This document shows, piece by piece, positions 5,730-20,962 of a stretch of DNA of 30,070 nucleotides. How positions within the stretch are numbered: the first letter of the stretch is position 1; each line of letters begins with the position of its first letter. Origin of the DNA: a bacterium (GTDB taxonomy: Bacteria > UBP15 > UBA6099 > DSWB01); assembly GCA_020061125.1 (NCBI GenBank), contig JAGUYV010000495.1, forward strand, positions 1-30,070, given 5' to 3'. The translations under genes were made by a program, and so were the position numbers. The notes beneath the pieces are model-generated. The model did not search any database. It saw only the letters and a list, made by a program, of their open reading frames with translations, and had not been told where the DNA came from.

Positions 5730-6342
5730 CCATGATTTGTTCCGCGCGGGCCTGCGCATGCTCATTGCAACACAGGACGATATGAAAGTGGTGGGCGAAG
5801 CCGGCACCGGGCGCGAAACCATCGCTCTGTGCAAGCGCGTCATTCCCGATGTGCTGCTTCTGGATCTGGACATGCCCGACATTGACGGCATCGAAGTCAC
5901 CCAGCAGATCACTGCCGCGCTTCCGGACATGCGCGTGCTCGTGCTCACCATGTATGACAGTGAAGACTACGCCATGCAGCTCACGCGCTGCGGCGCCGCG
6001 GGCTACATCGTCAAGGGCACTTCGCCCAAGGATCTTCCCGAGGCCATCCGCATTGTGGCCGGAGGAGAGGAATACATCTCCCCGCACCTGGCCGAAAAAA
6101 TCCTCTTCGAAGAAAAACGCTTCCGAAAGGAAGACCCTCTCGACCTGCTTTCGGCCAGGGAAATCCAGGTGCTCGGCAAGCTGGCCCTTGGCCACTCCGT
6201 GCGCGACATCGCAGAGGAACTCGGATTGAGCGTGAAAACCGTGGAGACCTACAAGCGCCGCACCATGCACAAGCTCGATCTGCGCAACATCTCGGACATC
6301 ACCCGTTTCGCGATCAAGCACGATCTCATAAAAAATTTCTGA
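5704..6342 (+). CDS. NarL/FixJ-family response regulator
   Basis: A 212-residue regulator: receiver domain (1-120) with acidic pocket D8-D9, phosphorylation site D54 ('LLLDLDMPDIDG') and conserved Lys in 'YIVKG', then a LuxR-type helix-turn-helix (about 145-210; 'LSAREIQVLGKLALGHSVRDIAEELGLS' split around the canonical 'VKTVETYKRR'). It should accept phosphate from the HisKA_3 kinase immediately upstream and bind DNA as a dimer. The TTG start is chosen from the AAGGAG seven bases upstream and because the receiver begins at once ('IRILIADDHD'). The gene ends 9 bases from the convergent NtrC-type regulator with no terminator visible between them. Regulated genes are unknown. Confidence 0.93.
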   Translation: MIRILIADDHDLFRAGLRMLIATQDDMKVVGEAGTGRETIALCKRVIPDVLLLDLDMPDIDGIEVTQQITAALPDMRVLVLTMYDSEDYAMQLTRCGAAGYIVKGTSPKDLPEAIRIVAGGEEYISPHLAEKILFEEKRFRKEDPLDLLSAREIQVLGKLALGHSVRDIAEELGLSVKTVETYKRRTMHKLDLRNISDITRFAIKHDLIKNF

Positions 6343-6351
6343 CCGCGCGCC

Positions 6352-7731
6352 CTATTTCAACTCACGCGGATCAATGCCGCAGTCATTGAGTTTTTTAATG
6401 ACATACGAGCGGGCAAGATCGGCGCGCCTCGCGGCTTCGGACACATTGCCGCCGCATTCACGCAACAAGTTCTTGAAGTAGCGCGCGTCGAACTGTTCGA
6501 CCACGCCCGCCTTGAGTTCGCGGTAAGGCCCTTCCAGCGGGAAACCCGGTTCCGCGCCGGCTCCTCCCCGGAACCGTTCGGGCAGATCCTCAAGCATGAT
6601 GTATTCGCCGTCGCTCATGACCACGAGGCTCTCGATGCAGTGCTTGAGTTCGCGCACATTTCCCGGCCATTCGTAGGACAGGAGCCGCTTGCGCACTTCG
6701 CCGGACATCTCGAGCCGCTTGCCAAGCTGCGCATTGAAAAATTTCATGAAATAGTCAAGCAGCGGGCCGATGTCCCCCTGCCTCTCGCGCAGAGGCGGCA
6801 GAGGAATGTGTATCACACGCAACCGGTGGTAGAGATCTTCGCGGAACCGGCCCTGCGAGACTTCATCGGCAAGATCCCTGTTCGACGCGGCGATGATGCG
6901 CACATCCGCCGTGCGGAGCCGGGTTTCGCCCACACGGTAGAATTCGCCGCTGTCGAGTACGCGCAGCAGCCGGGTTTGTAACGCGGGCGTGGCGCTCGAT
7001 ATTTCGTCGAGAAACAGCGTTCCTCCATCCGCGGCCTCGAACACGCCTTCACGGTCCGTGACCGCGCCCGTAAACGCGCCTTTGACATGTCCGAATAATT
7101 CGCTCTCGATCAGCGGCTCGGGAATGGCCCCGGTGTTGATGGAAATGTAGGGTTTTTCTTTGCGCGGATTGTTTGTGTTGTGGTGAATGGCGGACGCCAC
7201 CACATCCTTGCCAGTCCCGGTTTCTCCGGTGATCAGGACCGGGACATTCTTGGGCGCCACCCGGTCAATTATGGACATGATCTTTTCGATTTCCGGACTC
7301 TGGGTCACGATATTGGCGAAGCTGGCGCGCGCGCGCGGACGCAGATCGCGCACCTCTTTGTCCATGCTTTCGTAACGCACGGTTTTATATATGCGGAACA
7401 TGAGATTATCGAGATTGAAGGGCTTGTGCACATAGTCGCTGGCGCCGGCTTCGAGGCTTTTCATGGCCAGATCCTGATCGCCGTACGCGGTGATGAAGAT
7501 CACCGGTATGGGGATGGATTCCGCGCGCAGGCGTTCGAGCACATCCAGCCCGCTCATGCCGCCCATGCGATAGTCAAGCACCATGAGGTCGAATTTCTTT
7601 TTCCGCAGGGTTTCCAGGGCCTGCTCCCCTGAAAGCGCGTATTCCGCGCCGTAACCTTCGGAGAGCAGCTTTTCCCGAATGGCCCAGCACAGGTCTTTTT
7701 CGTCGTCAACTATCAGCACATTGATTTTCAT
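6352..7731 (-). CDS. NtrC-family sigma-54-dependent response regulator
   Basis: A 459-residue activator with the standard three domains. The receiver has D9-D10 and phospho-Asp D53 ('[12 protein letters not shown]'). The AAA+ domain (about 140-370) has Walker A 'GETGTGKD', the sigma-54 contact loop 'GAFTGA', Walker B 'GGTLFLDEI' and 'WPGNVREL'. A C-terminal Fis-type helix-turn-helix follows ('[17 protein letters not shown]'). GAFTGA is intact, so it should activate sigma-54 RNA polymerase. The start is ATG 7731 with GGAG about 8 bases upstream. It follows the PAS kinase 7744-8937 by 12 bases in the same transcript. The only clear sigma-54 promoter in the window (11658) lies behind a different regulator, so this protein's targets are probably elsewhere. 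Confidence 0.94.
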
Positions 7732-7743
7732 GGCGTCTCCGCG

Positions 7744-8937
7744 TCATGGTTGAATTAAAGGCAGGCGCACGATCACATGCGCGCCGCCTTGAGTCGCATC
7801 GAGAAATTCGAGCGCCCCGTGGTGCTCTTCGATGATGCGCTGGCAAATGGCCAGGCCCATGCCCGTGCCCGCGGGCTTGGTGGTGAAAAACGGATCCAGG
7901 ATTCGCTTGCGAATGTCCGCGGAAATGCCAGGCCCCGTGTCCTCAAACGCCAACTCTACCTCCCCGGATTCGGGCTGGGGGCGGGCATCCACGCGCAGTT
8001 CGCCTCCCTCGGGCATGGCTTCCAGCGCATTGAAAAACAGGTTGGTGAAAAGCTGGATCAGTTTTCCCTCGTCGGCTTCCACGGCCACGGGGTCGTGCCG
8101 GGCGTAACAGCGATCGAGCGCCACGCCGCCTTTTTTTAACTTTGGAAAAAACATGTCCGAAACATCATCAAGCAGGCGTGTGAGATCCAGAGGGCGCATT
8201 TCCGGCGGACGGTCATGCGCCAGGTTCGACAGCGAACGCACAGTGGTGGCAATGCGTTTTGCCTGTGTGTTCATGACCTCAAATGAATAATTCAGTTTCT
8301 CATCCGCGATGTTTTTGATCGTCTTGTTGGATTTCACGAGGTCCAAGTGCGCCTGCATAACGGACAGCGGGTTCTTGATTTCATGGGAAATGCCCAGGCT
8401 CAACTGCGCGATAGCCGCGTATTTTTCGGAACGGGCCAGGGCTTCCTCCATGCGCTTGCGGCCGGCAATGTCCTTGATCAGCGACAGCACGCCCCGGTAT
8501 TCGCCCCGGAAGTAGAAGCTCGTGCTTGTGATGAGGATTGGGATTCTGGTTCTGTCGCCGGTCACGAGCAGGGATTCGTACATGCCCGGACGGCCGGGGA
8601 TCTTCTTCTCTTCGTCAAGTGAAAAAAAATCCGACCAGGGGCGATCGAGCACCTGATCCCGGCTCTCGTACCCGGCCATGCGCACGAAGCCCATGTTGGC
8701 GAAACTCACCCGGCCCTTCTGGTCCTCGATCATGATGCCGTCGTCCGTGCTCTCGATGATCTGTTCGAACATGGAGAGGGCTTCTTCGAGTCCCTGCCCG
8801 CCGGGCTGCGCGCCGCCGCGCATTTGGGCCAGTTCCTCTTCCAGGGCGCGGCGGCGCTCCGCCATGGCCGCCAGTTCCTGTTCCACTTCCTGGATGCGCG
8901 CACGCCTGCCGCTTGTTTCTGCGTTGCCTTGTTCCAT
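7744..8937 (-). CDS. Soluble PAS-domain sensor histidine kinase (NtrB-like)
   Basis: A 397-residue kinase without membrane segments. Order: charged coiled coil (about 10-45), PAS domain (about 50-165), HisKA with phospho-acceptor His185 in 'GISHEIKNPLSVM', and HATPase (about 285-395) with N box 'LFTNLFFNALEAM', 'EDTGPGI' and 'GTGMGLAICQ'. It should phosphorylate the NtrC-type regulator encoded 12 bases downstream. The ATG at 8937 has GGAG about 10 bases upstream on the minus strand. The PAS domain would sense a cytoplasmic signal. The gene is transcribed divergently from the membrane kinase at 9104, sharing a 166-bp intergenic region. Confidence 0.93.
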   Translation of the reverse strand: MEQGNAETSGRRARIQEVEQELAAMAERRRALEEELAQMRGGAQPGGQGLEEALSMFEQIIESTDDGIMIEDQKGRVSFANMGFVRMAGYESRDQVLDRPWSDFFSLDEEKKIPGRPGMYESLLVTGDRTRIPILITSTSFYFRGEYRGVLSLIKDIAGRKRMEEALARSEKYAAIAQLSLGISHEIKNPLSVMQAHLDLVKSNKTIKNIADEKLNYSFEVMNTQAKRIATTVRSLSNLAHDRPPEMRPLDLTRLLDDVSDMFFPKLKKGGVALDRCYARHDPVAVEADEGKLIQLFTNLFFNALEAMPEGGELRVDARPQPESGEVELAFEDTGPGISADIRKRILDPFFTTKPAGTGMGLAICQRIIEEHHGALEFLDATQGGAHVIVRLPLIQP

Positions 8938-8978
8938 GAAAAATTGCTCCGCCGCCGCCTGCGAACCGGGTCATCTAA

Positions 8979-8984
8979 ATTATA
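8979..8984 (-). promoter_or_regulatory. -10 box for the PAS kinase/NtrC pair
   Basis: A perfect TATAAT on the minus strand, 42 bases upstream of ATG 8937, in the divergent intergenic region. No good -35 is seen at 17-18 bp. The predicted start near 8972 gives a leader of about 35 bases containing the Shine-Dalgarno. Confidence 0.45.
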
Positions 8985-9091
8985 TTGCATTCCCGGGACA
9001 CGGAAAGCGCGCGCGTAAAAATGCCCGGACCGCGGATTGCGCCCGCACCGTTCATTTCGAGTCGGAATCTGGAATCTCTACCGCACTGGTA

Positions 9092-9097
9092 TACAAT
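9092..9097 (+). promoter_or_regulatory. -10 box for the membrane kinase/NtrC-type pair
   Basis: TACAAT (5 of 6) ends 6 bases before ATG 9104. The expected transcription start coincides with the ATG; no Shine-Dalgarno is present. The -35 region (CTGGAA at 9069) is poor. Confidence 0.4.
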
Positions 9098-9103
9098 GAA
9101 TGC

Positions 9104-10183
9104 ATGACGGACGAAAATTCCGCGCGCCAGTCTCTGACCAGAACCGCGGCCCTACTCGGCGCGAGCATTGTCCTGATCAGCCTTCTGCATTATCTCACCA
9201 GTCTCGAATACCACATGCTGCATTCCTTTTTCCAGAGGCTGTACTACATCCCGATCATTTTCGCGGCGCTCATGCTGGGACTTCGCGGCGGGGCTGCCAC
9301 GGCTCTGGCCTGCACTGCGGCTTACGCGCCGCATGTAATATTCCAATGGGGAACCATGGGAATGCATTTCGCGGACCAATTGAGCGACATGCTCATGTTC
9401 AATGTGGTGGGCGCAATCACGGGTCTGCTCTCGGACAAGGAGCGCCGCATGAAAGACATGTACCGCGACGCTTACACGCGACTTCAGGAGTCCTTTGACA
9501 AAGCGCAGGAGGCGTCCAGAATGGCGGCCATGGGACAACTCGCCTCGGCGGTGGCGCACGAAATCCGTAACCCGCTCAACGGCATCAAGGGCGCGCAGGA
9601 TATCCTGTTCGAGACAATCTCCTCTGACCGGAAAGAATACAGATTCGTGGATATCTTGAAAAAGGAAACCGGGCGGCTCGAAGACATTGTCACGGAATTC
9701 CTGGATTTCGCAAGGCCGCGCGCGCCACGCCGCATCATGGCGAATGTGCTGCATGCGTTGCGCGCGGTAGCGGACTTAAGTCAACAGCACGCGGCCGCGC
9801 GCGGCGTGTCCCTTTCCGTGGACGAATCCTGCGCGGATCTCTGCGCGCTCATGGACCCGGATCAGATCCGCCAGGCGCTGCTGAACCTGGTGCTGAACGC
9901 CATAGACGCATGCGAAAACGGTGGCGTTGTCAGTTTGGGCGCGCGGCGTGAGCCGGGAGGCGCGGCCATCGAGGTTCGCGACAACGGCGCGGGCATCGCC
10001 CCCGATGAACAACATCGCATCTTCGAGCCGTTTCATACGACAAAGAGCCGTGGGACCGGTCTGGGACTCGCCGTTTGCAAAAGTATCGCCCGGGCGCACG
10101 GCGGAACCATAAGCGTGCAGAGCGCGCCCGGCCAGGGCGCTGCATTCATCATATTCCTGCCGGATCCGGAGAGGTCCGAATGA
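9104..10183 (+). CDS. Membrane sensor histidine kinase (ZraS/AtoS-like catalytic part)
   Basis: A 359-residue kinase. Four hydrophobic segments in the first ~115 residues ('LLGASIVLISLLHYL', 'YYIPIIFAALMLGLRGG', a 'ALACTAAYAPHVIFQW' segment and 'MLMFNVVGAITGLL') form a compact membrane sensor with only short loops, not a periplasmic sensor domain. A short coiled stretch leads to HisKA with His152 ('VAHEIRNPLNGIKG') and HATPase with 'LNLVLNAIDAC', 'VRDNGAGI' and 'GTGLGLAVCK'. ATG 9104 is chosen because the upstream in-frame sequence overlaps the divergent promoter and is not protein-like. The stop overlaps the regulator's ATG (ATGA at 10180). The link to the metal genes downstream makes a metal or envelope-stress signal likely; this is inference. 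Confidence 0.9.
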   Translation: MTDENSARQSLTRTAALLGASIVLISLLHYLTSLEYHMLHSFFQRLYYIPIIFAALMLGLRGGAATALACTAAYAPHVIFQWGTMGMHFADQLSDMLMFNVVGAITGLLSDKERRMKDMYRDAYTRLQESFDKAQEASRMAAMGQLASAVAHEIRNPLNGIKGAQDILFETISSDRKEYRFVDILKKETGRLEDIVTEFLDFARPRAPRRIMANVLHALRAVADLSQQHAAARGVSLSVDESCADLCALMDPDQIRQALLNLVLNAIDACENGGVVSLGARREPGGAAIEVRDNGAGIAPDEQHRIFEPFHTTKSRGTGLGLAVCKSIARAHGGTISVQSAPGQGAAFIIFLPDPERSE

Positions 10184-11547
10184 AACAGCACATCATCCTA
10201 TTCGCAGACGACGACGCCAGCCAGCGCGAGGTGGCCGCGTACCGGCTCGAACAGGCGGGCTACACGGCGATCACAGCAGCCGATGGCGCGCAGGCTCTGG
10301 ACCTGTTCAGCCGTCACACGCCCAGCGCCGTGATCACGGATCTGCGCATGCCCGGAATGCACGGACTGGATCTGCTCGCACAAATCAAAAGCCTGTCCCC
10401 GGACACCGCGGTCATTGTTGTCACAGCCCACGGGTCCATTGATTCCGCGGTCGAGGCCATGAAACGCGGCGCTTTCGACTACCTCCAGAAACCTTTCTCT
10501 TCCGAGCAACTCATCCTGTGCGTGGAAAAGGCGCTGCGCGTTGCCGATATCGTGCAGGAAAACAGGTATCTGCGCCAGGTGGTCGCGGACAAATTCCGAT
10601 TCGAGTCCATGATTGGAACCTCGCCCGGAATGGAAGCCGTGTTCCGCACCGCAGCGCAGGTGGCGCCGCGCGACGCCACAGTGCTGCTGCTGGGGCAGAG
10701 CGGCACAGGCAAAGAACTTCTGGCCAAGGCCATCCACTTCCAGAGCGCGCGGCGCGACAAGCCGTTCGTGGCCGTGAACATGGCGGCCGTGCCCGAGACC
10801 CTGGCCGCGTCGGAACTTTTCGGCCACGCCAAAGGAGCGTTCACTGGGGCGATAGCCGACAAGCCGGGCCGTTTCGAGCAGGCGCACCGCGGCACGCTGT
10901 TCCTTGATGAAATCGCGGATTTGCGTCCCGAGCTGCAGGGCCACCTGCTGCGCGTGCTGCAGGAAAAAACCGTGGAGCGCGTAGGAGAGAATAAAGCCCG
11001 CGCCGTGGATGTGCGCATCATTGCCGCCACAAACCAGGATCTGGAGGAAAAGGCGCGTGAGGGCGAGTTCCGCGAAGATCTTTTCTACCGGCTCAATGTG
11101 GTGCCCATCACCCTGCCGCCTCTGCGCGAGCGCACCGGCGACATCCCCTTGCTCCTCGATCATTTCAACAAAAAAATCAGCGCAGGGTCGGGCGCGCCTC
11201 CTCTGCGGTTCTCGGACCACGCCCTGCGCGCGCTTTCGGCTTATTCGTGGCCGGGCAATGTGCGCGAACTGGAGAATCTTGTGGAACGATTATCCGCAGT
11301 CACCGAGACCGGGATTGTGGACATTGCGGATCTGCCCGAGTCTCTGCGCCGCCCGGGCGGAGCATCCGCGCGCCTGTTCGTGGATCTGCCCGACGACGGC
11401 ATTTCCCTTTACGACATCGAAAAAGCAGCCATCGAGCGCGCTCTGGAAAAAAACAGCGGCAATCAGTCCCGCACCGCCCGGTTTCTGAACATTCCCAGAA
11501 ACACCCTGCTGTACCGCATGGATAAACTCGGCATCCCCAGAAAATGA
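10180..11547 (+). CDS. NtrC-family sigma-54 response regulator (ZraR-like), likely activator of the metal-binding operon
   Basis: A 455-residue activator. The receiver has phospho-Asp D54 ('VITDLRMPGMHG') and Lys in 'YLQKPF'. The AAA+ domain has Walker A 'GQSGTGKE', intact 'GAFTGA', Walker B 'GTLFLDEI' and 'WPGNVREL'. The Fis-type C-terminus is 'NQSRTARFLNIPRNTLLYRM'. The start ATG overlaps the kinase stop codon, so the pair is coupled. Its stop codon lies inside a perfect 16-bp palindrome (11545-11560), and a sigma-54 promoter follows at 11658, placing a probable target operon immediately downstream. The arrangement recalls ZraSR controlling ZraP, but the target genes are different, so it is not named zraR. 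Confidence 0.94.
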   Translation: MKQHIILFADDDASQREVAAYRLEQAGYTAITAADGAQALDLFSRHTPSAVITDLRMPGMHGLDLLAQIKSLSPDTAVIVVTAHGSIDSAVEAMKRGAFDYLQKPFSSEQLILCVEKALRVADIVQENRYLRQVVADKFRFESMIGTSPGMEAVFRTAAQVAPRDATVLLLGQSGTGKELLAKAIHFQSARRDKPFVAVNMAAVPETLAASELFGHAKGAFTGAIADKPGRFEQAHRGTLFLDEIADLRPELQGHLLRVLQEKTVERVGENKARAVDVRIIAATNQDLEEKAREGEFREDLFYRLNVVPITLPPLRERTGDIPLLLDHFNKKISAGSGAPPLRFSDHALRALSAYSWPGNVRELENLVERLSAVTETGIVDIADLPESLRRPGGASARLFVDLPDDGISLYDIEKAAIERALEKNSGNQSRTARFLNIPRNTLLYRMDKLGIPRK

Positions 11548-11583
11548 CGGATATCCGTCACCGCTTCTGACCAATATGCGGCA
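11545..11583 (+). promoter_or_regulatory. Tandem candidate enhancer sites for the NtrC-type regulator
   Basis: TGACGGATATCCGTCA (11545-11560) is a perfect 16-bp palindrome. A second element, TGACCAATATGCGGCA (11568-11583), matches it at 11 of 16 positions. Centres are 23 bp apart, about two helical turns, and lie about 108-131 bp upstream of the predicted sigma-54 start, the usual place for NtrC-family enhancers. The first site contains the stop codon of the regulator gene. Confidence 0.55.
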
Positions 11584-11657
11584 ACGCAAAACCCTCACCC
11601 AATCTTCTAAAATTATTTCTTCCTCTTAACACGACACTTTTCGTTTCTGCATGCTCA

Positions 11658-11673
11658 TGGCATGAACCTTGCA
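11658..11673 (+). promoter_or_regulatory. Sigma-54 (RpoN) promoter
   Basis: TGGCATGAACCTTGCA fits the -24/-12 consensus TGGCACG-N4-TTGCA with one mismatch. The invariant GG (11659-11660) and GC (11671-11672) are exactly 10 bases apart. The start is expected near 11684, leaving a leader of about 32 bases that contains GGAGG (11701) before ATG 11716. Confidence 0.8.
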
Positions 11674-11715
11674 TTTTCATGTCGCAGTTATGCCGGAATC
11701 GGAGGCGAAAACGCT

Positions 11716-11877
11716 ATGAAGCCACTACTCGCCGCACTCTTTACGGCAGCATTAGCAGCCACAACCGCGGTCACCGCCCTGCTCTTCCGGCAGTTCGAAT
11801 ACATGCTGCGCGAACATGCCCACTCCATGAAACCGGGCATCGCGGAACCCACTCAAGAAAGGAAGATCGCAACATGA
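11716..11877 (+). CDS. Small (53-aa) single-pass membrane protein
   Basis: A short gene with a strong ribosome site (GGAGG at 11701-11705, 10 bases before ATG). Residues 1-24 are hydrophobic and Ala/Leu/Thr-rich, either a signal anchor or signal peptide. The tail is polar with 'MLREHAHSM', a possible metal ligand cluster (two His, two Met). The stop overlaps the next start (ATGA at 11874), so it is coupled to the DUF3347 gene. I recognise no family. It is the first gene behind the sigma-54 promoter, so a role in the same response is likely. Start at ATG 11662 is rejected because it lies inside the promoter. Confidence 0.65.
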   Translation: MKPLLAALFTAALAATTAVTALLFRQFEYMLREHAHSMKPGIAEPTQERKIAT

Positions 11878-12503
11878 AAACACAAAAAACATTCACCGGA
11901 CTGCTGTTGCTCCTGGCGATCGCGCTGGCCTGGGTTGTTCCCGTCCAAGCCGCCAAAACGCCAACCGTTCAGGATCACATCACCGCCATCGCAGATGCGT
12001 CTGTGAAAATTCATGGCGCCCTGGCTTCGGACAGCGTCAAGGATGTGCGCAAGAACGCCGCGGACATCGTGAAATCAGCGGACGCCGCCATCAAGCTGGC
12101 GGCCAAGGACAAGAAGAAAAATGCAAAGCTGATTGACGCGCTCAACGGCGTGATAACCGCGGCTGCGGATTACGGCAAGGGGTTGAAAAAGGATGAAGAA
12201 ATCAAGATTGACGCGGCGCGCGAGAATTTCTATCCGCTGTCCAGTTCGATCATCGAACTCGTCAAAGGACACCTGCCCGAGAAAGCCGCGGCAAAGTACA
12301 CCATGTTCCACTGCCCCATGGCAAAGGGATACTGGCTGCAAAGCGACGCCAAAAAACTGCGCAATCCCTATTACGGCAGCGAGATGCTCGAGTGCGGCAA
12401 GAAGACCGCAATCAAGGATTACGACCCCAAGAAATGCAAATGCCACGACAAGCACGAGCACGGAAAGCTGGATGAGAGCAAAAAGAGTGAGCACAAGCAT
12501 TGA
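11874..12503 (+). CDS. Secreted DUF3347-domain protein with Cys/His-rich tail (metal binding)
   Basis: A 209-residue protein with a clear Sec signal peptide (residues 1-26, cleavage after 'VQA'). The mature part is helical and Lys/Ala-rich, ending in the DUF3347 signature: 'HCPM' (H146, C147, M149), 'YWLQ', 'NPYYG' and 'MLECG' (C174). This is followed by 'KKCKCHDKHEHG' (C188, C190 and several His) to the end. DUF3347 is usually met in the periplasm with, or fused to, CusB-type adaptors and is thought to bind copper or similar metals; here it is free-standing with an extra ligand-rich tail. It is co-transcribed with the 53-aa gene from the sigma-54 promoter, separately from the efflux genes, and could act as a periplasmic metal buffer or chaperone. 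Confidence 0.88.
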   Translation: MKTQKTFTGLLLLLAIALAWVVPVQAAKTPTVQDHITAIADASVKIHGALASDSVKDVRKNAADIVKSADAAIKLAAKDKKKNAKLIDALNGVITAAADYGKGLKKDEEIKIDAARENFYPLSSSIIELVKGHLPEKAAAKYTMFHCPMAKGYWLQSDAKKLRNPYYGSEMLECGKKTAIKDYDPKKCKCHDKHEHGKLDESKKSEHKH

Positions 12504-12573: not shown

Positions 12574-12602
12574 TTGACATAATGCCCCCATTATGATATC
12601 TT
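12574..12602 (+). promoter_or_regulatory. Sigma-70-type promoter with palindromic operator ahead of the efflux operon
   Basis: A perfect TTGACA (12574-12579), 17-bp spacer, TATCTT (12597-12602, 4 of 6). The spacer is almost entirely taken up by an 18-bp perfect inverted repeat, CATAATG-CCCC-CATTATG (12578-12595). A protein bound there would cover the promoter. The start near 12609 gives a leader of about 50 bases with GGAGG (12649-12653) 7 bases before ATG 12661. Confidence 0.65.
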
Positions 12603-12660: not shown

Positions 12661-13335
12661 ATGTTCGATAGACTTGAAACAATTCACCCCATGATAGTCC
12701 ACTTCCCGATCGTTCTGATCATTGGATCCCTTGCCGCATACGCCGCATACGCCGCCACGCGAAGGGAATTCTTCGCCCTGGCTGGGGCGTGGACAGTGCC
12801 TCTGGGCGCCGTAGCGTCAGCCGCCGCGGTCATCGCTGGTAAAGTTGCCGAAGCCCATGCATCTCACAACGCCGAAGCCCATGTGATACTGGAGCGCCTG
12901 CACAAGCCATTGGGCTACACCGTCCTTGTGCTAACGGCAGTGCTGACAATCTGGGGCTTCGTCTCACGCTGGAAATTCCAAGGAGCCAATCTTGCTGCAT
13001 TTCTGTGTGCTCTAATACTAACAACGATTCTCACAGCCGCAACCGGGCATTACGGAGCGACCATGGTGTATGAACACGGAATGGGCGTGAACCCCGCAGT
13101 CCTCAAGCCCTCTGCACACGAGCATGACCGTGACTCTCATAAAAGCCACGAATCCATGCGCAGGCGCATGAATGGGTCCAACGGACATGCGCACGAGCGG
13201 CGTCAAGGCGCGTCGCACAATCATAGCGAATCAGGGGATCTCGAATCCGCTCCTCACGAAAACCGAAATAGTAATTCATCATCGAATCATGAGGATCAAG
13301 ATCAATCGCACAGCGGCCACGAGCACGAGCATTAA
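12661..13335 (+). CDS. DUF2231 membrane protein with His-rich C-terminal tail
   Basis: A 224-residue inner-membrane protein. The DUF2231 start 'IHPMIVHFPIVLI' (His9, His14) is followed by four hydrophobic segments (about 10-31, 38-60, 84-102, 110-132) with conserved His in 'HKPLGY' and 'ATGHYGA'. DUF2231 proteins are often encoded near metal or cytochrome genes but their reaction is unknown. Residues 151-224 form a polar tail with 14 His, ending 'HSGHEHEH', which would bind divalent or soft metal ions. The tail-coding DNA is visibly lower in GC than its surroundings. It is the first gene of the efflux operon, 27 bases before the first TolC-like gene. Confidence 0.85.
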   Translation: MFDRLETIHPMIVHFPIVLIIGSLAAYAAYAATRREFFALAGAWTVPLGAVASAAAVIAGKVAEAHASHNAEAHVILERLHKPLGYTVLVLTAVLTIWGFVSRWKFQGANLAAFLCALILTTILTAATGHYGATMVYEHGMGVNPAVLKPSAHEHDRDSHKSHESMRRRMNGSNGHAHERRQGASHNHSESGDLESAPHENRNSNSSSNHEDQDQSHSGHEHEH

Positions 13336-13362: not shown

Positions 13363-14748
13363 ATGACTTCAAAACTCGGTAATCTTACGCACCGGCTATT
13401 GCGAATGCCCGTGCTTCTTTTATGCAGCGTTCTGCTCGCGTCCCCGCCATCAATGGCCATGGACGCCGCGGCCGCAACAGGTCAAAGACTGACAGCCGCT
13501 GTCAGCGAATCCACGCCGGACATGGAACCAGCGCCCGGAGGCCTGGCCGCGCTCCTGCGAGAGGCGTTCGCACAAAACCCCGGCGCGGCCGCTGCGCGCG
13601 CTTCATGGCTGGCCGCTCTCCAGGAACATCCCCAGGCTACCGCCCTGCCCGACCCCATGCTCGAATTCATGCGCGAGGAGAACGGTTATGAACTCATGCT
13701 CTCGCAGATGTTCCCGGCGCGCGGCATGCTGCGCATCAAGGGAAGCATGGCGGACGCAAGGGCTGAAATGGCGCGTCTGAACTACGAAATGACAGTGCGC
13801 GATCTGGTCACGGACATGCGCACACGCTACGCGGAGCTTCAATACCTTGACCGCGCCATCGAACTGACCACGCAAAACCTGGTGCTCGTCGAGCGTCTCG
13901 TCTCCATTTCGCAAAGGGACTATGGCGCGGGCAAAGCACCTTTGAACGATCTCATGCGAGCACAGGCCCAGCACGCGCAGGTGGGGTATGATCTGCTGCT
14001 GCTCCAGGAAGTCCGGGACACCGAGACCGCACGCATGAACGCCCTGCTCAACCGCGCGCCCGAAACTCCGCTGACCATTCTCTCGCAACAACCCGTGGCC
14101 GCCCCTGCCCTTGATATCGAAGCACTGTATGAAATCGCGCAAGCTGCAAGACAGGAAATTCTCATGGCGGTAGTCGGCGAAACCATGGGTGAGCTGGACA
14201 TGGGCATGGCCAAAAAGATGTCCCGGCCCGAGTTTGTGCTGGGTGTGACGCGCCAGTCCATGGAAAGCAGCGCGGCCATGAGTGGAGCGGATGCGGAAAT
14301 GGGCGCGGCGCCAGCCTCAACGGGAAACGATGTTTCATGGAAATTCACCGTGGGCATGACCATACCCCTTTGGGCCGCGCGCAACAGGGCCGCAGTGCGG
14401 GGAGCGGAGCATAAACTCGAAGCCGCGCGACACGCCAGACAACAGAGCGTGAACCAGGCGCACGAACAGATCAAGAGCCTGCACTTCAAAATCCGCACAA
14501 GCGCCCGGCTCGTTGAACTCTATGAGCAGACCCTGGTTCCGCAGGCGCGCCAGGCTCTGGAACAGAGTGAAGTCATCTACAATGCTGGCACATCTTCAAT
14601 ATCGGAAATCATCGAGGTGCAGGCCGTGTGGCTGAATTTCGAGCTGGCGCTTGCACGCGCACGCGCCGATCTGACACAGAACATCGCCATGCTTGAAATG
14701 ACAGTGGGCGCGCCCATTGACTCAATATCCGGAGGTGGCGCGCAATGA
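13363..14748 (+). CDS. TolC/CusC-like outer-membrane efflux protein (first copy)
   Basis: A 461-residue outer-membrane efflux protein with a signal peptide (about 1-33). Two long helical halves are typical of OEP: 'VTDMRTRYAELQYLDRAIELT' is one repeat's coiled-coil region (broken here by charged residues) and 'YEQTLVPQARQALEQSEVIYNAG' its counterpart near the C-terminus (length slightly over twenty only when joined; shown at 14521-14588). A Met-rich stretch (about nt 14164-14320, with 'GELDMGMAKKM' and 'MESSAAMSGADAEMG') lies between the halves. ATG 13363 is preferred over ATG 13348 because GGAG sits 9 bases before it. Its stop overlaps the ATG of the second TolC-like gene. It should form the outer-membrane exit channel for the CusBA pump. 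Confidence 0.88.
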   Translation: MTSKLGNLTHRLLRMPVLLLCSVLLASPPSMAMDAAAATGQRLTAAVSESTPDMEPAPGGLAALLREAFAQNPGAAAARASWLAALQEHPQATALPDPMLEFMREENGYELMLSQMFPARGMLRIKGSMADARAEMARLNYEMTVRDLVTDMRTRYAELQYLDRAIELTTQNLVLVERLVSISQRDYGAGKAPLNDLMRAQAQHAQVGYDLLLLQEVRDTETARMNALLNRAPETPLTILSQQPVAAPALDIEALYEIAQAARQEILMAVVGETMGELDMGMAKKMSRPEFVLGVTRQSMESSAAMSGADAEMGAAPASTGNDVSWKFTVGMTIPLWAARNRAAVRGAEHKLEAARHARQQSVNQAHEQIKSLHFKIRTSARLVELYEQTLVPQARQALEQSEVIYNAGTSSISEIIEVQAVWLNFELALARARADLTQNIAMLEMTVGAPIDSISGGGAQ

Positions 14749-16349
14749 CCCGCATTCCCGCCTTCGCAATCACACACGCAATGAAAATCCCCGCACGATT
14801 GATTCACCTGTCACTTATCGTCATTTATTTTACCATTGCGCCAATGGCGCGCGCCGCCTCGCCCGCGCACAATACAGATTATGCTCCGGCATTCTTCGAG
14901 CAGGCCGTTCGCAACGCCGAAACCTCGGAGCAAAGCATGTCCGCGCACCAGATCCCGGACATGTCCGGCGCTCAAGCGGCTTTCGAGGAATCCTTGAAAG
15001 AACTGCGGGAACACGCCGCACTAGCAGCGAGGAGAACACCCGCGGACATTCTGCACGATTTCCTGCCACAAGAAATCATTAAAGGAATGAACGCAGCGCG
15101 CGCGACTGACCCGGACTACGCCGCGAAACTCTTTTCCGGAGGCGTAACGCTCGAAATAATTCTTGGCGCGGCCGTGGCGTACAGCCCCTCGATCAAGGGC
15201 GCGGAGCAGGATTTCAATGCGGCCATGAACCGCTTCAGCCAGGCCGAATATCTGAACCAGCTTGTGTACCAGTACCTGGGTTTTACGCAATCGCTGGACA
15301 TCATCGCAACGCCCCAGAAAAACAAACGCATGACGCAGATGAGCTGGCCCTTTCCCGGATCCGCATCGTTGCAAGCCGGCGCCGTGAACATTGATGTAGA
15401 AACCGCGCGCGTGAACTTCGAGGCCGCGGTGCGCGATGTCATGGCCGAAGTGAGCGAGGCGTACACCGAACTGCTATTCAACGAGGCCATGGCCGCAATC
15501 GTACGCGAGAACCTGGGTGTGGCGCGCAAGGCAGAGAAAACCGCCATCGCGCTCTACTCCACGGGCAAGGGAATGTATGGGGATATGGTCATGATCGCCA
15601 GTCGCATTGACAAGCTGGAGGCCATGGAGCAGAGCTTCACGCACAAACGGCGCGGCGCGGCGGCGCGCCTGCTTCAGACTGCGGGCCTGCCGCACGATAC
15701 GCCACTCGGCAAACCAGCGCCCTTCGCCGATTCGCCTCCTCTGTCCAGGGACGCCGCGCGCAAAGCCGCCGTCACGCACGGCCAGGAAGTGCGCGCCATG
15801 GAGCTTATGGTCCGGCGCATGGATGTGATGGTGGACATGGCCGCTCGAATGGCGTTTCCCGATTATTCATTGGGGCTGTCCTATTTTCAAAACCTGGAAA
15901 TGGAGCCAATGGCCGGGCAGAGCGCAATGCCAAATTTCGCGGTGCGCCCCATGGGACCTGGCGCCGCACCGTCATTTGCTTCGGAAAATTCCTACATTCG
16001 CGAACTGCGCAACGCGCGTGACGCCGCCGCTCAAAAACTCGACGACATGCGCAACCGCATGGCGGCCATGGCGGATCAAAATTACGCGGATTATCTCGCC
16101 GCCTCAAATACCGCAAGCACCATCCGCAATTCCACGATTCCCAAAGCTCGGAATGCATACGAAGCCGCGCTCGGATCGTACATGTCGGGCATGGGCGGTT
16201 TCACGGGGGTCCTTGACACACTGGAAATGCTGCTCGACGAAAAGATGGAGCTTCAGGACGCCGTGATGATGGCGCGCATGGCGCGAATCATGCTTGACAA
16301 AACCACAGGCGGCGGCGCGCACGCGATTAAAGGGAGCCAGAGCCAATGA
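14745..16349 (+). CDS. Second TolC-like outer-membrane protein, divergent and Met-rich
   Basis: A 534-residue protein directly following the first TolC-like gene (ATGA overlap) and overlapping cusB by the same ATGA pattern. A hydrophobic leader (about 13-40, ending 'PMARAASPA') indicates export. An N-terminal region of about 100 residues not typical of OEP proteins precedes the helical body ('VNFEAAVRDVMAEVSEAYTE', 'MELQDAVMMARMARIML'). Met is very frequent, e.g. 'MELMVRRMDVMVDMAARM' (nt ~15799-15852) and 'MEPMAGQSAMPNF'. It may be a second channel subunit or a metal-binding partner; similarity to TolC is weaker than for the first copy. ATG 14781 ('MKIPARLIH') is an alternative start that would give a shorter signal peptide. 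Confidence 0.78.
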   Translation: MTRIPAFAITHAMKIPARLIHLSLIVIYFTIAPMARAASPAHNTDYAPAFFEQAVRNAETSEQSMSAHQIPDMSGAQAAFEESLKELREHAALAARRTPADILHDFLPQEIIKGMNAARATDPDYAAKLFSGGVTLEIILGAAVAYSPSIKGAEQDFNAAMNRFSQAEYLNQLVYQYLGFTQSLDIIATPQKNKRMTQMSWPFPGSASLQAGAVNIDVETARVNFEAAVRDVMAEVSEAYTELLFNEAMAAIVRENLGVARKAEKTAIALYSTGKGMYGDMVMIASRIDKLEAMEQSFTHKRRGAAARLLQTAGLPHDTPLGKPAPFADSPPLSRDAARKAAVTHGQEVRAMELMVRRMDVMVDMAARMAFPDYSLGLSYFQNLEMEPMAGQSAMPNFAVRPMGPGAAPSFASENSYIRELRNARDAAAQKLDDMRNRMAAMADQNYADYLAASNTASTIRNSTIPKARNAYEAALGSYMSGMGGFTGVLDTLEMLLDEKMELQDAVMMARMARIMLDKTTGGGAHAIKGSQSQ

Positions 16350-17821
16350 AACAAAAACCACTCATCATCGCAATCCTTCTGCTCATTGCGGGCTTTTCGC
16401 TCGGCCAGTTCTTCCACCTTCCGGAGATGGTTGCGAAGTGGAAACCGGAGAGCAAGGCGGGAAGCGCCGCCAAAAACACGGCCGGCAAAATCCTGTACTG
16501 GACCTGCGGCATGCACCCGCAAATCCGCGAAGACAAACCCGGCAACTGCCCCATCTGCGCCATGAAACTCACGCCCGTGCGCGAGTCCGCAAGCGGTCAT
16601 GAAGAGCATGAAAACGATGACGGCACGGTGACCATTGACGCCGCCACGGTTCAGAACATGGGCGTGCGCACCGCGGCCGTGACCCACGGCCCGCTCGAGC
16701 GATCCATTCGCGCCGTGGGAACTATTGAGGTCAACGAGCGCAGTCTCTCCTCTATCAACTCCAAGGTGGAGGGATGGATTGAAAAGGTTCATGTGCAGGA
16801 AACCGGAGCGTTCGTCAAAAAGGGGCAGCCTCTGTATGACATATACTCCCCGGACCTGGTTTCCGCACAACAGGATTACCTGCTCGCTTTGGACAGCGGA
16901 TCCGCCAAAATCCGCGCCGCGGTCAAAACCCGTCTGAAGTTCTGGGACATTCCGGATTCGGAGATCGAGCGCCTTGCGCGCACTCGCGAAATTCAAAAAA
17001 CACTCACCGTAAACGCGCCCGTGAGCGGTTACATAGTGGACCGCATGGCCCAGGAAGGCTCAAGCGTGATGATGGGCGCGGACCTGTTCAAAATCGCGGA
17101 CCTGTCCGAGGTCTGGGTCATGGCCAGCTTCTATGAGAACGAAACGCCGTTCCTGTCCGTGGGGCAGGACGCGGACATGACGCTGTCGTATCTCCCGGGG
17201 AAAATATTCCGCGGCCGATTGGATTACATCTACCCCACCCTGGACCCCATGACCCGCGACATCAGAGCGCGGCTGGTGTTCGCGAACCCGGACCTGCTGC
17301 TCAAGCCCGGCATGTTCGCGAATGTAACGCTGAAGTCGCGCATCGCGGACCACGCCCTGCTGATTCCCGAAGAAGCCGTGATTCGCACAGGCGTGCGCGA
17401 TGTGGTGTTTGTTCAGAAGGGCAAAGGGCGTTACGCTCCCCGTGATGTGAAATTGGGCCCGGCCGGCGACAAGGGCATGACGCAGGTACTTGAAGGCCTT
17501 TCCGGAGACGAGGCCGTGGTGGTCTCTTCGCAGTTCCTGCTGGATTCCGAGAGCCGCCTGCGCCGCGCCGCGTCCGATGGGACGGCCGCGCCCGGAGCGC
17601 ATAATCACGGGGCCTCGGCCCCCGAGGCAAAGAGCAGGCCTTCCGCGAAAAATAAATCATCCAAAAAAAATTCCGCGGCATGGCCCGACCCGGCCAGGGG
17701 CAAGTATGTCTGCCCTATGGAGGAGGACAACTATTACTATGACGAGCCAGGCAAATGCCCCAAATGCGGCATGACTCTGGTGGAAACCCAGTCCCTGCAA
17801 AATGAATCGCACCAACACTGA
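16346..17821 (+). CDS. cusB: CusB-like RND periplasmic adaptor with heavy-metal-binding motifs at both ends
   Basis: A 491-residue adaptor. N-terminal membrane anchor (5-21), then a heavy-metal-binding domain: 'CGMHPQ' (C54, H57) and 'CPICAM' (C68, C71; family normally CPxCGM). The hairpin and lipoyl-like core follow ('VEGWIEKVHVQETGAFVKKG', with 'PVSGYI' as the second half), then the beta-barrel and membrane-proximal parts. After a Ser/Lys-rich linker the C-terminus has a second motif: 'YVCPMEEDNYYYDEPGKCPK' plus 'CGM' (nt ~17704-17772) and ends 'HQH'. Adaptors of this class pass Cu(I)/Ag(I) to CusA. Two such motifs in one adaptor suggest extra metal capture. It is translationally coupled to the TolC-like gene upstream and lies 21 bases before cusA. 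Confidence 0.92.
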   Translation: MKQKPLIIAILLLIAGFSLGQFFHLPEMVAKWKPESKAGSAAKNTAGKILYWTCGMHPQIREDKPGNCPICAMKLTPVRESASGHEEHENDDGTVTIDAATVQNMGVRTAAVTHGPLERSIRAVGTIEVNERSLSSINSKVEGWIEKVHVQETGAFVKKGQPLYDIYSPDLVSAQQDYLLALDSGSAKIRAAVKTRLKFWDIPDSEIERLARTREIQKTLTVNAPVSGYIVDRMAQEGSSVMMGADLFKIADLSEVWVMASFYENETPFLSVGQDADMTLSYLPGKIFRGRLDYIYPTLDPMTRDIRARLVFANPDLLLKPGMFANVTLKSRIADHALLIPEEAVIRTGVRDVVFVQKGKGRYAPRDVKLGPAGDKGMTQVLEGLSGDEAVVVSSQFLLDSESRLRRAASDGTAAPGAHNHGASAPEAKSRPSAKNKSSKKNSAAWPDPARGKYVCPMEEDNYYYDEPGKCPKCGMTLVETQSLQNESHQH

Positions 17822-17842: not shown

Positions 17843-20800
17843 ATGATTGAACGAATTATCGAATACTCACTCAAGAACAGGCTGCTGATCCTCATCCTGG
17901 CCGCGTTTCTTTTTCTCGGCGGCATGTTCGTGATGCGCGACATGGCCGTTGACGCGATCCCGGACTTGAGCGATGTGCAGGTCATCGTGTTTACGGAATA
18001 TCCGGGACAGGGTCCGCAGATCGTGGAAGACCAGGTCACCTATCCGCTGACCACAGCTATGATGGCGGTGCCTCACGCGCGCAATGTGCGCGGATTTTCG
18101 TTCTTCGGTTATTCGTTTGTATACATCATTTTCGAGGATGGCACGGACCTGTACTGGGCGCGCAGCCGTGTTCTGGAGCAGTTGAGCGCGGCGGCCGGAC
18201 GCCTGCCCGATGGCGTCACCCCAACCATCGGGCCGGATGCTACGGGCGTGGGATGGATTTACGAATATTCCATTGAAGACACTTCGGGTAAGCACGACCT
18301 CTCGCAGTTGCGATCCATTCAGGACTGGTATCTGAAATATGAGCTGACAGCCGTGCCGGGCGTGTCCGAGGTCGCGAGCCTGGGCGGGTTCGTGAAACAA
18401 TACATTATCGAGGTTGACCCCAACAAGCTCGCGGCTTACGGCATGTCCATACAGATGGTGGAAATGGCCATCATGCGCAGCAACAACGATGTGGGCGGCA
18501 GCGTGCTGGAAATGGGCGAAACCGAATTCATGGTGCGCGGCCTCGGATATATCCAGTCCATTGAAGACATTAAAAAAATTGCTTTGGATGCGGACATGAA
18601 CGGCACCCCGGTTCTGGTGCAGGATGTGGCTCGTGTGAGCATCGGGCCTGAAATGCGCCGCGGCGTTGCTGAACTCGACGGACAGGGTGAAGTCGTGGGC
18701 GGCATCGTGCTCATCCGCCAGGGCGAGAACGCCCTGAAAGTCATCAAAGCCGTTAAAGAAAAAATCGAGGATCTGAAATCCGGCCTGCCCGAAGGCGTCG
18801 TGATCAAGCCCATGTACGATCGCTCGACCCTGATCGAGCGCTCCGTGGACACCCTGCGCCACGAACTCATCCTGCAAATCATCGTGGTCGCCATCGTGTG
18901 CATCGTGTTTCTGTTCCATGTGCGCAGCGCGTTCGTGGCCGTATTCACCCTGCCCGCGGGCGTGCTCGCGTCTCTCATCATCATGCACTTCATGGGAATA
19001 ACCGCCAACATCATGAGCCTGGGCGGCATCGCCATCGCCATCGGCGTGATGGTGGACGCGTCCGTGGTCCTGGTGGAAAACGCCCATAAAAAAATGGAGC
19101 ATTACGGCGATTCTAAACCACACCTTGAAATTATCTCCGAAGCCGCCAGAGAAGTAGGGCCAGCCCTGTTTTATTCTCTGTTGATCATCACAGTGTCGTT
19201 CCTGCCCGTGTTCGCACTCCAAGAACAGAGCGGCCGCCTGTTCAAACCCCTGGCCTACACAAAAACATTCTCCATGGCTGCATCCTCTATCCTCGCCATC
19301 ACGATCATTCCCGTGCTCATGTACTATTTCGTTCGCGGCAGGATACCGCGGGAGGAAAACCATCCCGTGAGCCGTTTCTGCATTCGCATCTACAGGCCTG
19401 TGCTCGAATTCGTTCTGCGCCGCCGCACGGGAGCCATCGCCATTGCCGTGCTCGCTCTGGTTCTCACTGCGATTCCCATGTCCCGCGTCGGGTCCGAGTT
19501 CATGCCTCCGCTGGACGAGGGGGACATCCTGTACATGCCCACCACGGACCCCGGCATTTCCGTGGCCAAAGCGCGCGAACTGCTCCAGCAGACGGACAGG
19601 ATTATCAAGTCGTTCCCGGAAGTCAAAACCGTGTTCGGCAAAATCGGCCGCGCCGAAACCGCCACCGACCCCGCGCCCATGATGATGATTGAAACAACAA
19701 TTCAACTCAAGGACAAAAAGCACTGGCGCAAGGGCATGACCACGGACAAACTCATCGAGGAGCTGGACGCAGCAGTCCAGATTCCCGGCCTGACCAATGC
19801 ATGGACCATGCCCATCCGCACACGCATTGACATGCTCTCGACCGGCATTAAGACGCCCGTGGGCGTAAAGGTCATGGGACCGGATCTGAATGTGCTGTCT
19901 GACATCGCGGATCAGGTGGCCGCTGCGGTGCGGCCCTTGAAAGGCACGGCCAGCGCATACGCCGAGAAAACCATGGGCGACAATTATGTGGACATGAAGA
20001 TTAACCGCGACGCCATCGCGCGGTATGGGATGACCGTGGGCGATGTGCAGGATGTGATCGCAAGCTCACTCGCGGGCATGAGCGTGACGCAGACCGTGGA
20101 GGGACTGGAGCGCTATCCCGTGGCGCTTCGCTATCAGCGCGAACTGCGCGACACCTTGCCCGCGCTGGAGCGGGTGCTGGTCCTGGCGCCGTCCGGCGCG
20201 CGCGTGCCTCTGGGCGAACTCGTGGACATCACCGTCACAAAAGGCCCGGCGGGCATCAAGAGCGAAAACGCTCGCCGCACGGCCTGGGTGTATGTGGACG
20301 TCAAGGGCGCAGACATCGGCACTTTCGTGAAACGAGCCAAGCAGACCGTGGCGTCACAGGTGAAGCTGCCGCCCGGCTACAGCATCGTGTGGAGCGGCCA
20401 GTACGAATACATGCAGCGGGCAGCCGCCATTCTGAAAATCGCCATCCCCCTCACTCTGCTCATCATCGTGCTGCTGCTGTATTTTCACTTCGGAAATTTC
20501 ACGGAAACCGCCATCGTGCTTCTCGCCGTTCCGTTCTCGCTGGTCGGGGGCTACTGGCTGCTCTACATACTGGGCTACAACACCAGCGTGGCGGTGTGGG
20601 TGGGGTTCATCGCCCTGGCGGGCCTGGACGCGGAAACCGGCGTGGTCATGCTCGTGTATCTCAAACATGCCTGGCAAAACCGCATGGATTCCGGAAACAT
20701 GAACACGCCCGAAGACCTTCGAGAATCCATCATGGAAGGCGCGGTGCTGCGCGTGAGGCCCAAACTCATGACCGTATCCACCACGCTCATGGGCCTGCTG

Positions 20801-20962
20801 CCCATCATGTTCTCGCACGGCACGGGCGCGGAAGTCATGAAGCGCATCGCCGCGCCCATGATCGGCGGGTTGATCACAGCCGTGCTCATCGAGCTGCTCC
20901 TGTACCCGGTCATCTTCGACATTCTCAAGGAACGCGAACTGCGCCGCCGCGCCGTGCTTTGA
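17843..20962 (+). CDS. cusA: CusA-like heavy-metal efflux RND pump (Cu(I)/Ag(I) type)
   Basis: A 1039-residue RND transporter of full length: 12 membrane helices, two periplasmic loops, and the HME-family start 'IPDLSDVQVIVFTEYPGQ'. The copper/silver site is kept: M565 ('ILYMPTTDPG'), M615 ('MMMIETT') and M664 ('RIDMLSTG') lie at a constant offset of 8 from E. coli CusA M573, M623 and M672, and E617 matches E625. Proton-relay residues are present in 'AIGVMVDASVVLVEN' (Asp), 'LAGLDAETGVVML' (Glu) and 'VRPKLMT' (Lys). It therefore should export Cu(I)/Ag(I) with CusB and the TolC-like channel(s), driven by proton influx. It is the last gene of the operon; a promoter for the next gene overlaps its stop. 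Confidence 0.96.
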   Translation: MIERIIEYSLKNRLLILILAAFLFLGGMFVMRDMAVDAIPDLSDVQVIVFTEYPGQGPQIVEDQVTYPLTTAMMAVPHARNVRGFSFFGYSFVYIIFEDGTDLYWARSRVLEQLSAAAGRLPDGVTPTIGPDATGVGWIYEYSIEDTSGKHDLSQLRSIQDWYLKYELTAVPGVSEVASLGGFVKQYIIEVDPNKLAAYGMSIQMVEMAIMRSNNDVGGSVLEMGETEFMVRGLGYIQSIEDIKKIALDADMNGTPVLVQDVARVSIGPEMRRGVAELDGQGEVVGGIVLIRQGENALKVIKAVKEKIEDLKSGLPEGVVIKPMYDRSTLIERSVDTLRHELILQIIVVAIVCIVFLFHVRSAFVAVFTLPAGVLASLIIMHFMGITANIMSLGGIAIAIGVMVDASVVLVENAHKKMEHYGDSKPHLEIISEAAREVGPALFYSLLIITVSFLPVFALQEQSGRLFKPLAYTKTFSMAASSILAITIIPVLMYYFVRGRIPREENHPVSRFCIRIYRPVLEFVLRRRTGAIAIAVLALVLTAIPMSRVGSEFMPPLDEGDILYMPTTDPGISVAKARELLQQTDRIIKSFPEVKTVFGKIGRAETATDPAPMMMIETTIQLKDKKHWRKGMTTDKLIEELDAAVQIPGLTNAWTMPIRTRIDMLSTGIKTPVGVKVMGPDLNVLSDIADQVAAAVRPLKGTASAYAEKTMGDNYVDMKINRDAIARYGMTVGDVQDVIASSLAGMSVTQTVEGLERYPVALRYQRELRDTLPALERVLVLAPSGARVPLGELVDITVTKGPAGIKSENARRTAWVYVDVKGADIGTFVKRAKQTVASQVKLPPGYSIVWSGQYEYMQRAAAILKIAIPLTLLIIVLLLYFHFGNFTETAIVLLAVPFSLVGGYWLLYILGYNTSVAVWVGFIALAGLDAETGVVMLVYLKHAWQNRMDSGNMNTPEDLRESIMEGAVLRVRPKLMTVSTTLMGLLPIMFSHGTGAEVMKRIAAPMIGGLITAVLIELLLYPVIFDILKERELRRRAVL

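Follow-up and report, generated by a model that had tools for sequence, protein, structure and literature searches.

The DNA between an NtrC-family regulator gene and the genes that follow it is very probably the control point of a sigma-54-dependent metal-defence operon. It lies in a window of 30,070 nt (the whole stretch of bacterial DNA analysed) belonging to a draft genome of 4.1 Mb that is 79% complete. In the proposed mechanism, a kinase with four membrane helices (9104-10183) would sense excess metal at or within the membrane, or a membrane signal caused by metal, and would phosphorylate the regulator (10180-11547), whose Fis-domain dimers would bind two palindromes (11545-11560 and 11568-11583) about two helical turns apart. 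The bound regulator would then loop to the sigma-54 RNA polymerase waiting at 11658-11673, and ATP hydrolysis through its GAFTGA loop would open the promoter near 11684. The transcript would encode a small membrane protein and a secreted DUF3347-type protein, and would probably run on into a DUF2231-OMP-OMP-CusB-CusA block, OMP being an outer membrane efflux protein. The sites with their spacing and conservation, the genes and the linkage between them are read directly from the DNA; binding, looping and activation are proposed from established NtrC/sigma-54 biology.

Predicted promoter, putative enhancer pair and genes of the window

The predicted sigma-54 promoter, TGGCATGAACCTTGCA, occupies 11658-11673 on the forward strand, with the -24 GG and the -12 GC exactly 10 bp apart (GG-N10-GC). 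As the first-pass annotation had proposed, the box ends 42 nt before the ATG at 11716, which is preceded by a purine-rich ribosome site (GGAGGCGAAAACGCT), and transcription is predicted to start near 11684. In a scan of the 30,070 nt this is the sole site scoring at least 10 of the 12 consensus letters, and boxes of this quality were rare in dinucleotide shuffles (P = 0.0004). Strict TGGCAYG-N4-TTGCW sites number 11 in the genome, this one included, compared with 0 for the reversed control; most of these are intergenic, just 5' of a start codon, and one stands ahead of a P-II-like gene, a type classically controlled by sigma-54. Sigma-54 requires an ATP-driven activator and is silent without one. 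The rpoN gene, on whose presence the first-pass annotation had made its reading depend, occurs in one copy (a single Sigma54_DBD gene, 116.8 bits).

Upstream of the box we find two putative enhancer sites. Site 1 is the perfect 16-bp palindrome TGACGGATATCCGTCA at 11545-11560, whose TGA doubles as the stop codon of the regulator gene, and site 2 is TGACCAATATGCGGCA at 11568-11583, offset by 23 bp. The palindrome and the spacing were described correctly from the start, and only the identity of the second copy needed correction, from 11/16 to 12/16. The recomputed site centres fall at about -131 and -108 relative to the predicted start, in agreement with the earlier estimate and within the range of about 80-200 bp upstream in which paired palindromes are typical of NtrC-type enhancer binding. 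In dinucleotide shuffles the perfect palindrome had P = 0.002 and a second copy of at least 12/16 had P = 0.0024; with up to two mismatches allowed, site 1 occurs once in the source genome. That the palindrome simply belongs to the end of the regulator gene, with a coincidental -24/-12 box downstream, is hardly credible: the overlap with the stop codon speaks in its favour, as do three other perfect 16-bp palindromes in the window, whose coordinates lie inside open reading frames, but the shuffle statistics and the recurrence of the whole arrangement in a relative and in other families go against it.

The sensor histidine kinase (359 aa, 9104..10183, forward strand) consists of a four-helix membrane domain at about residues 16-110 followed by HisKA and HATPase_c (Pfam). 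Hydropathy indicates about four helices joined by short loops, and the AlphaFold2 model is all-helical (pLDDT 89), which bears out the initial description of four membrane helices and no periplasmic domain; neither a periplasmic domain nor HAMP was found in it by Pfam, hydropathy or AlphaFold2. The membrane domain resembles DUF4118, the KdpD-type membrane domain, weakly at best (22.2 bits, below the Pfam gathering score of 28.4). Foldseek of the kinase against the PDB gave nothing below E 0.7, and PDB sequence searches yielded nothing usable. Its orthologs are 36-52% identical, and two residues of the sensor, His29 and His40, are kept in nearly all members of this sensor type. The regulator (455 aa, 10180..11547, forward strand) has the composition of the NtrC-type class, namely a receiver (Response_reg), a Sigma54_activat domain with GAFTGA and a Fis-type helix-turn-helix (HTH_8) with the recognition helix IPRNTLLYRMDK, as seen by Pfam and in the alignment with relatives. 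The two genes belong to a stretch (3324-11547) where three two-component systems are packed side by side, the others being a PAS-type kinase with a NarL-type regulator (3324-6342, forward strand) and a PAS kinase with an NtrC-type regulator (6352-8937, minus strand).

The first gene of the predicted sigma-54 transcript (11716..11877, forward strand) encodes a 53-aa single-pass membrane protein, recognised by hydropathy and by counterparts at the same position in three relatives (G001, G003 and G006), and its stop overlaps the next start (ATGA). The second gene (11874..12503, forward strand) encodes a secreted protein of 209 aa, predicted to bind metal, with a conserved CPM...MxxCG core and a His/Cys-rich tail. 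It appears to be a distant relative of DUF3347: the window protein itself scores 17.5 bits, below the gathering score of 25.5, and all five members of its family match DUF3347 (best E 1.8e-7), an assignment also based on a model. A single-sequence search with this protein over the genome contigs found no match, an alignment-based search with the family recovered mainly the same relatives (MAGs such as ADurb.Bin236), and Foldseek against the PDB gave nothing below E 0.7. Behind these two genes, all on the forward strand, lie a DUF2231 membrane protein with a His-rich tail (12661..13335, Pfam), two outer membrane efflux proteins (13369..14748, start uncertain, and 14745..16349, both Pfam OEP), a CusB-type membrane fusion protein with two heavy-metal-binding (HMBD) motifs (16346..17821, Pfam/NCBIfam) and a heavy-metal efflux RND pump of the CusA/CzcA family (17843..20962), which scores 1217 bits against TIGR00914 (cut-off 701). 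These neighbours suggest a metal as the signal, with copper or silver the likeliest. The interval separating the DUF3347 gene from the DUF2231/Cus block showed no terminator-like site. A sigma-70-like promoter (TTGACA-17-TATCTT with TG before the -10; 12574-12602, forward strand; 10/12 by consensus match only) sits in the same interval and is a possible separate second start for the pump block.

Comparison with known metal-responsive systems

The usual view of copper and silver pumps has them controlled by MerR-type regulators or by two-component systems of the OmpR type, neither of which involves sigma-54. CusR and SilR are themselves OmpR-type regulators that do not use sigma-54, and CusS and SilS carry periplasmic metal sensors. 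Like CusRS-CusCFBA and SilRS-Sil, the window system appears to place a CusCBA-type pump, along with a secreted protein that binds metal, under a two-component system, but its regulator is of the NtrC type and predicted to depend on sigma-54.

In ZraSR-ZraP (HydHG) of Escherichia coli and Salmonella, a sigma-54 promoter drives a secreted metal-binding protein (PMC4987338), and current work presents ZraR as a zinc-activated regulator of envelope stress (PMC7657598). The combination of kinase, NtrC-type regulator and sigma-54 promoter is common to both systems, and the divergent layout of ZraSR-ZraP matches that of the three relatives G001, G003 and G006. In contrast, the window system has a four-helix sensor, no ZraP and an RND pump behind, and its regulator genes lie upstream of the enhancer instead of diverging from it. 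The first-pass annotation had called the system ZraSR-like, a ZraSR-ZraP logic rebuilt with another sensor and another output; the logic holds, as do the different sensor and output, whereas kinship does not, with scores far below the NCBIfam equivalog cut-offs (195.9 against 479 bits for ZraS, 378.6 against 760 bits for ZraR). The AtoSC models outscore those of ZraS and ZraR, as does the NtrC model in the case of the regulator, and the family models gave no ZraP-type match to the 209-aa output protein.

Of the tested precedents for copper genes under sigma-54, CorSR of Myxococcus xanthus is the nearest, a copper-responsive kinase with a sigma-54 regulator, where deletion and lacZ fusions show regulation and putative sigma-54 promoters precede copper genes such as those of a multicopper oxidase and a P1B ATPase (PMC3707914). 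CorS, however, has one transmembrane helix, a periplasmic sensor and HAMP, unlike the four-helix window kinase, which lacks HAMP, and CorSR is encoded within its own target operon. Neither 'binding site' nor 'palindrom' occurs in the main text of the CorSR paper (PMC3707914). Searches of the open-licence literature, which yielded CorSR and ZraSR, returned no description of a four-helix sensor combined with this enhancer pair. The best reading is that the window system represents an undescribed branch of the sigma-54-dependent, metal-linked two-component systems, similar to ZraSR and CorSR in the way it would work but a member of neither.

Relatives in the same phylum

Comparison within the phylum covered seven genomes, among which G002 holds the closest kinase (57% over the sensor part). 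Behind the regulator gene of G002 come TGACCGATATTCGTCA and TGACGAATATCCGTCA, with an offset of exactly 23 bp, and then a GG-N10-GC box, TGGCGCGTTTTTTGCT; the two sites are 14/16 and 15/16 copies of site 1, placed as in the window. The stretch TGACNNATATNNGTCA is found exactly at three places only in the seven genomes, one in the window and two in G002. Both the palindrome pair, kept here at the orthologous regulator, and a -24/-12-like box have been retained among relatives, as the first-pass annotation expected if its reading were right. The gene behind the box in G002 encodes a secreted protein of 185 aa whose 31 cysteines form CxC repeats and which may be a metallothionein-like protein of the periplasm; it corresponds to L080:11206-11763 and has no Pfam match. 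Since the window and G002 share the pair, the 23-bp spacing and the box but differ in their target genes, the control appears to be conserved and the output swapped between them.

In G001, G003 and G006 the kinase/regulator pair is divergent from a small membrane gene followed by DUF3347-like, OMP, OMP, CusB and CusA genes. The claim that the regulator drives a 53-aa/DUF3347 operon gains from this linkage, kept in three relatives, and was drawn too narrowly in its extent, the output being wider than two genes, with the Cus pump genes directly behind in the relatives. In the upstream regions of these three genomes the -24 box reads TGGCATG or TGGCGCT, and the -12 element TTGT or TTGA. A diverged pair of sites (TGTTGCATTTCAAGCA or a similar sequence, followed by TGAT...CA at an offset of 22 bp) lies 166, 166 and 167 bp from the -24 box. 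When G001 and G003 were compared in promoter register, 27 of 38 positions of a 38-bp block matched, which 0 of 4000 shuffles reached; in free register, G001 and G006 gave P = 0.18, not significant. The diverged pair in the G001-type relatives is significant through its fixed position only. Another candidate enhancer, an ACGG...CCGT element with 5-bp spacing at intergenic position 138 of G001, was rejected because it is unpaired and its distance from the -24 box is about 290 bp.

The final C of the -12 element is replaced at several loci, giving GT or GA in G001, G003, G006 and in two genomes from outside the phylum (G080 and G221), and GG in G333. At L014, L015, L016, L137, L160 and L170 the -12 is often TTGT, TTGA or TTGG, with the -24 GG kept. 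Some of the boxes without the -12 C may be weak or misjudged. Other single matches to the motif in the phylum have neither partner site nor box, except for one lead in G001, where two tandem sites with a 22-bp spacing and a TGGCATAGCTCTTGAT box (L171 near 1501, G001:C22:13267) precede a CheY-like gene and a YHS/thioredoxin-reductase-like gene. These genes would be a candidate distant target for the second system of this type in that genome (L081).

Sensor loci beyond the phylum

Of 386 genomes searched with the sensor-domain profile, 45 gave a match, and 40 of these lie outside the phylum. At 40 such loci many of the kinases adjoin an NtrC-type regulator, and a substantial minority are accompanied by metal genes: a multicopper oxidase with Met/His-rich proteins (L128, L129), CusB/OMP (L137), Met/His-rich and DUF2231 proteins (L139), CusA (L142, L145, L150, L157), OMP-OMP-CusB (L146), HMA (L152), and a P-type ATPase with DUF2231, OMP and CusB (L160). 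A CusA-type gene is found no more than 10 kb from the sensor in 7 cases, compared with 0.42 expected (P 3e-7), the cases not all being independent, as G080 and G221 represent one genus and G105 and G243 one family.

The enhancer pair recurs as well. At L137, TGTAGAATATTCTACA and TGTAGAATATGCCACA stand 23 bp apart before TGGCACGGCAGTTGTT, and L134, L128 and L129 have similar pairs 21 bp apart; the 23-bp spacing is shared by the window, G002, G080 and G221, with 21-22 bp at other loci. With overlapping registers of the same pair counted individually, matches to a TGnnGRATAWYCnnCA pair plus box numbered 33 in the 46 loci, whereas the shuffled sets gave 1, 2 and 2. Perfect motif sites fell in metal-linked loci in 10 of 10 cases (window, G002, L128, L129, L134, L137, L152, L160; about 0.3 in shuffles), with the reservation that the window, G002, L128, L129, L134 and L137 had served to define the motif, so that their counts lack independence; only L152, the two L160 sites and L170 came to light after it had been defined. 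At L170 (G221) the pair and box precede a 137aa-OMP-CusB-CusA series separated from the regulator by another large gene, and at L168 (G064) the predicted transcript comprises a 122-aa protein, a YHS protein and, further on, OMP, CusB and a CusA-like protein. At L137, L168 and L170, as in the window, the first gene of the predicted sigma-54 transcript encodes a small membrane protein. A clear site pair was absent from the metal-linked L142, L145, L146, L150 and L157.

Together these loci suggest, still tentatively and with a little less than even confidence on our part, an undescribed sigma-54 metal-defence family spread across unrelated bacterial families, in which one sensor type (with His29/His40) and one enhancer pair (TGnnGRATAWYCnnCA twice, 21-23 bp) would form a portable cassette, with outputs from metallothionein-like proteins to Cus pumps and the metal detected in or at the membrane. 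In little-studied bacteria, sigma-54 appears to be a recurrent answer to the need for metal defence. The motif has enough specificity for members and targets to be predicted from sequence alone, even with the operon away from the regulator (as in G221), and in the sensor the idea that metal can be detected without a periplasmic domain becomes open to test. On the other hand, 28 of the 46 sensor loci have no metal gene nearby, where either the sensor has other uses or its targets lie elsewhere. Together with a sensor that has no recognisable metal-binding domain and the envelope-stress role now given to ZraR (PMC7657598), these loci with non-metal neighbours are compatible with a switch that is real but has another signal, the kinase sensing membrane or envelope stress and the metal-handling proteins forming part of an envelope response. 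We consider this unlikely, as the outputs vary by locus but metal handling is their common theme (DUF3347 with Cus, Cys-rich, multicopper oxidase, HMA, YHS, P-type ATPase).

A metal-defence switch run by the adjacent pair is also in line with the recognition helices. Regulators with IPRN or IPRH at this helix (IERH in L160) pair with GRATATYC-type sites, and the VTRNTL/ITRNTL helix of the G001/G003 type pairs with diverged TGTTG...CAAGCA sites, a correlation over few cases whose direction is as expected if the regulator binds the sites. Activation of the promoter by another NtrC-type regulator, such as 6352-7731 or one elsewhere in the genome, seems quite improbable: a second kinase/NtrC pair does adjoin this one on the minus strand, and enhancer-binding proteins are able to work from remote sites, but a pair of the 9104-11547 type stays beside the site in three relatives and in G002, and it is the recognition helix of 10180-11547 that co-varies with the motif, the helix-turn-helix of 6352-7731 being unlike it. 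In the kinase tree, the window groups with G002 (99) inside the clade of the phylum (98), and metal linkage is clustered (7 changes, compared with 14.4 in shuffles) and spread beyond one clade.
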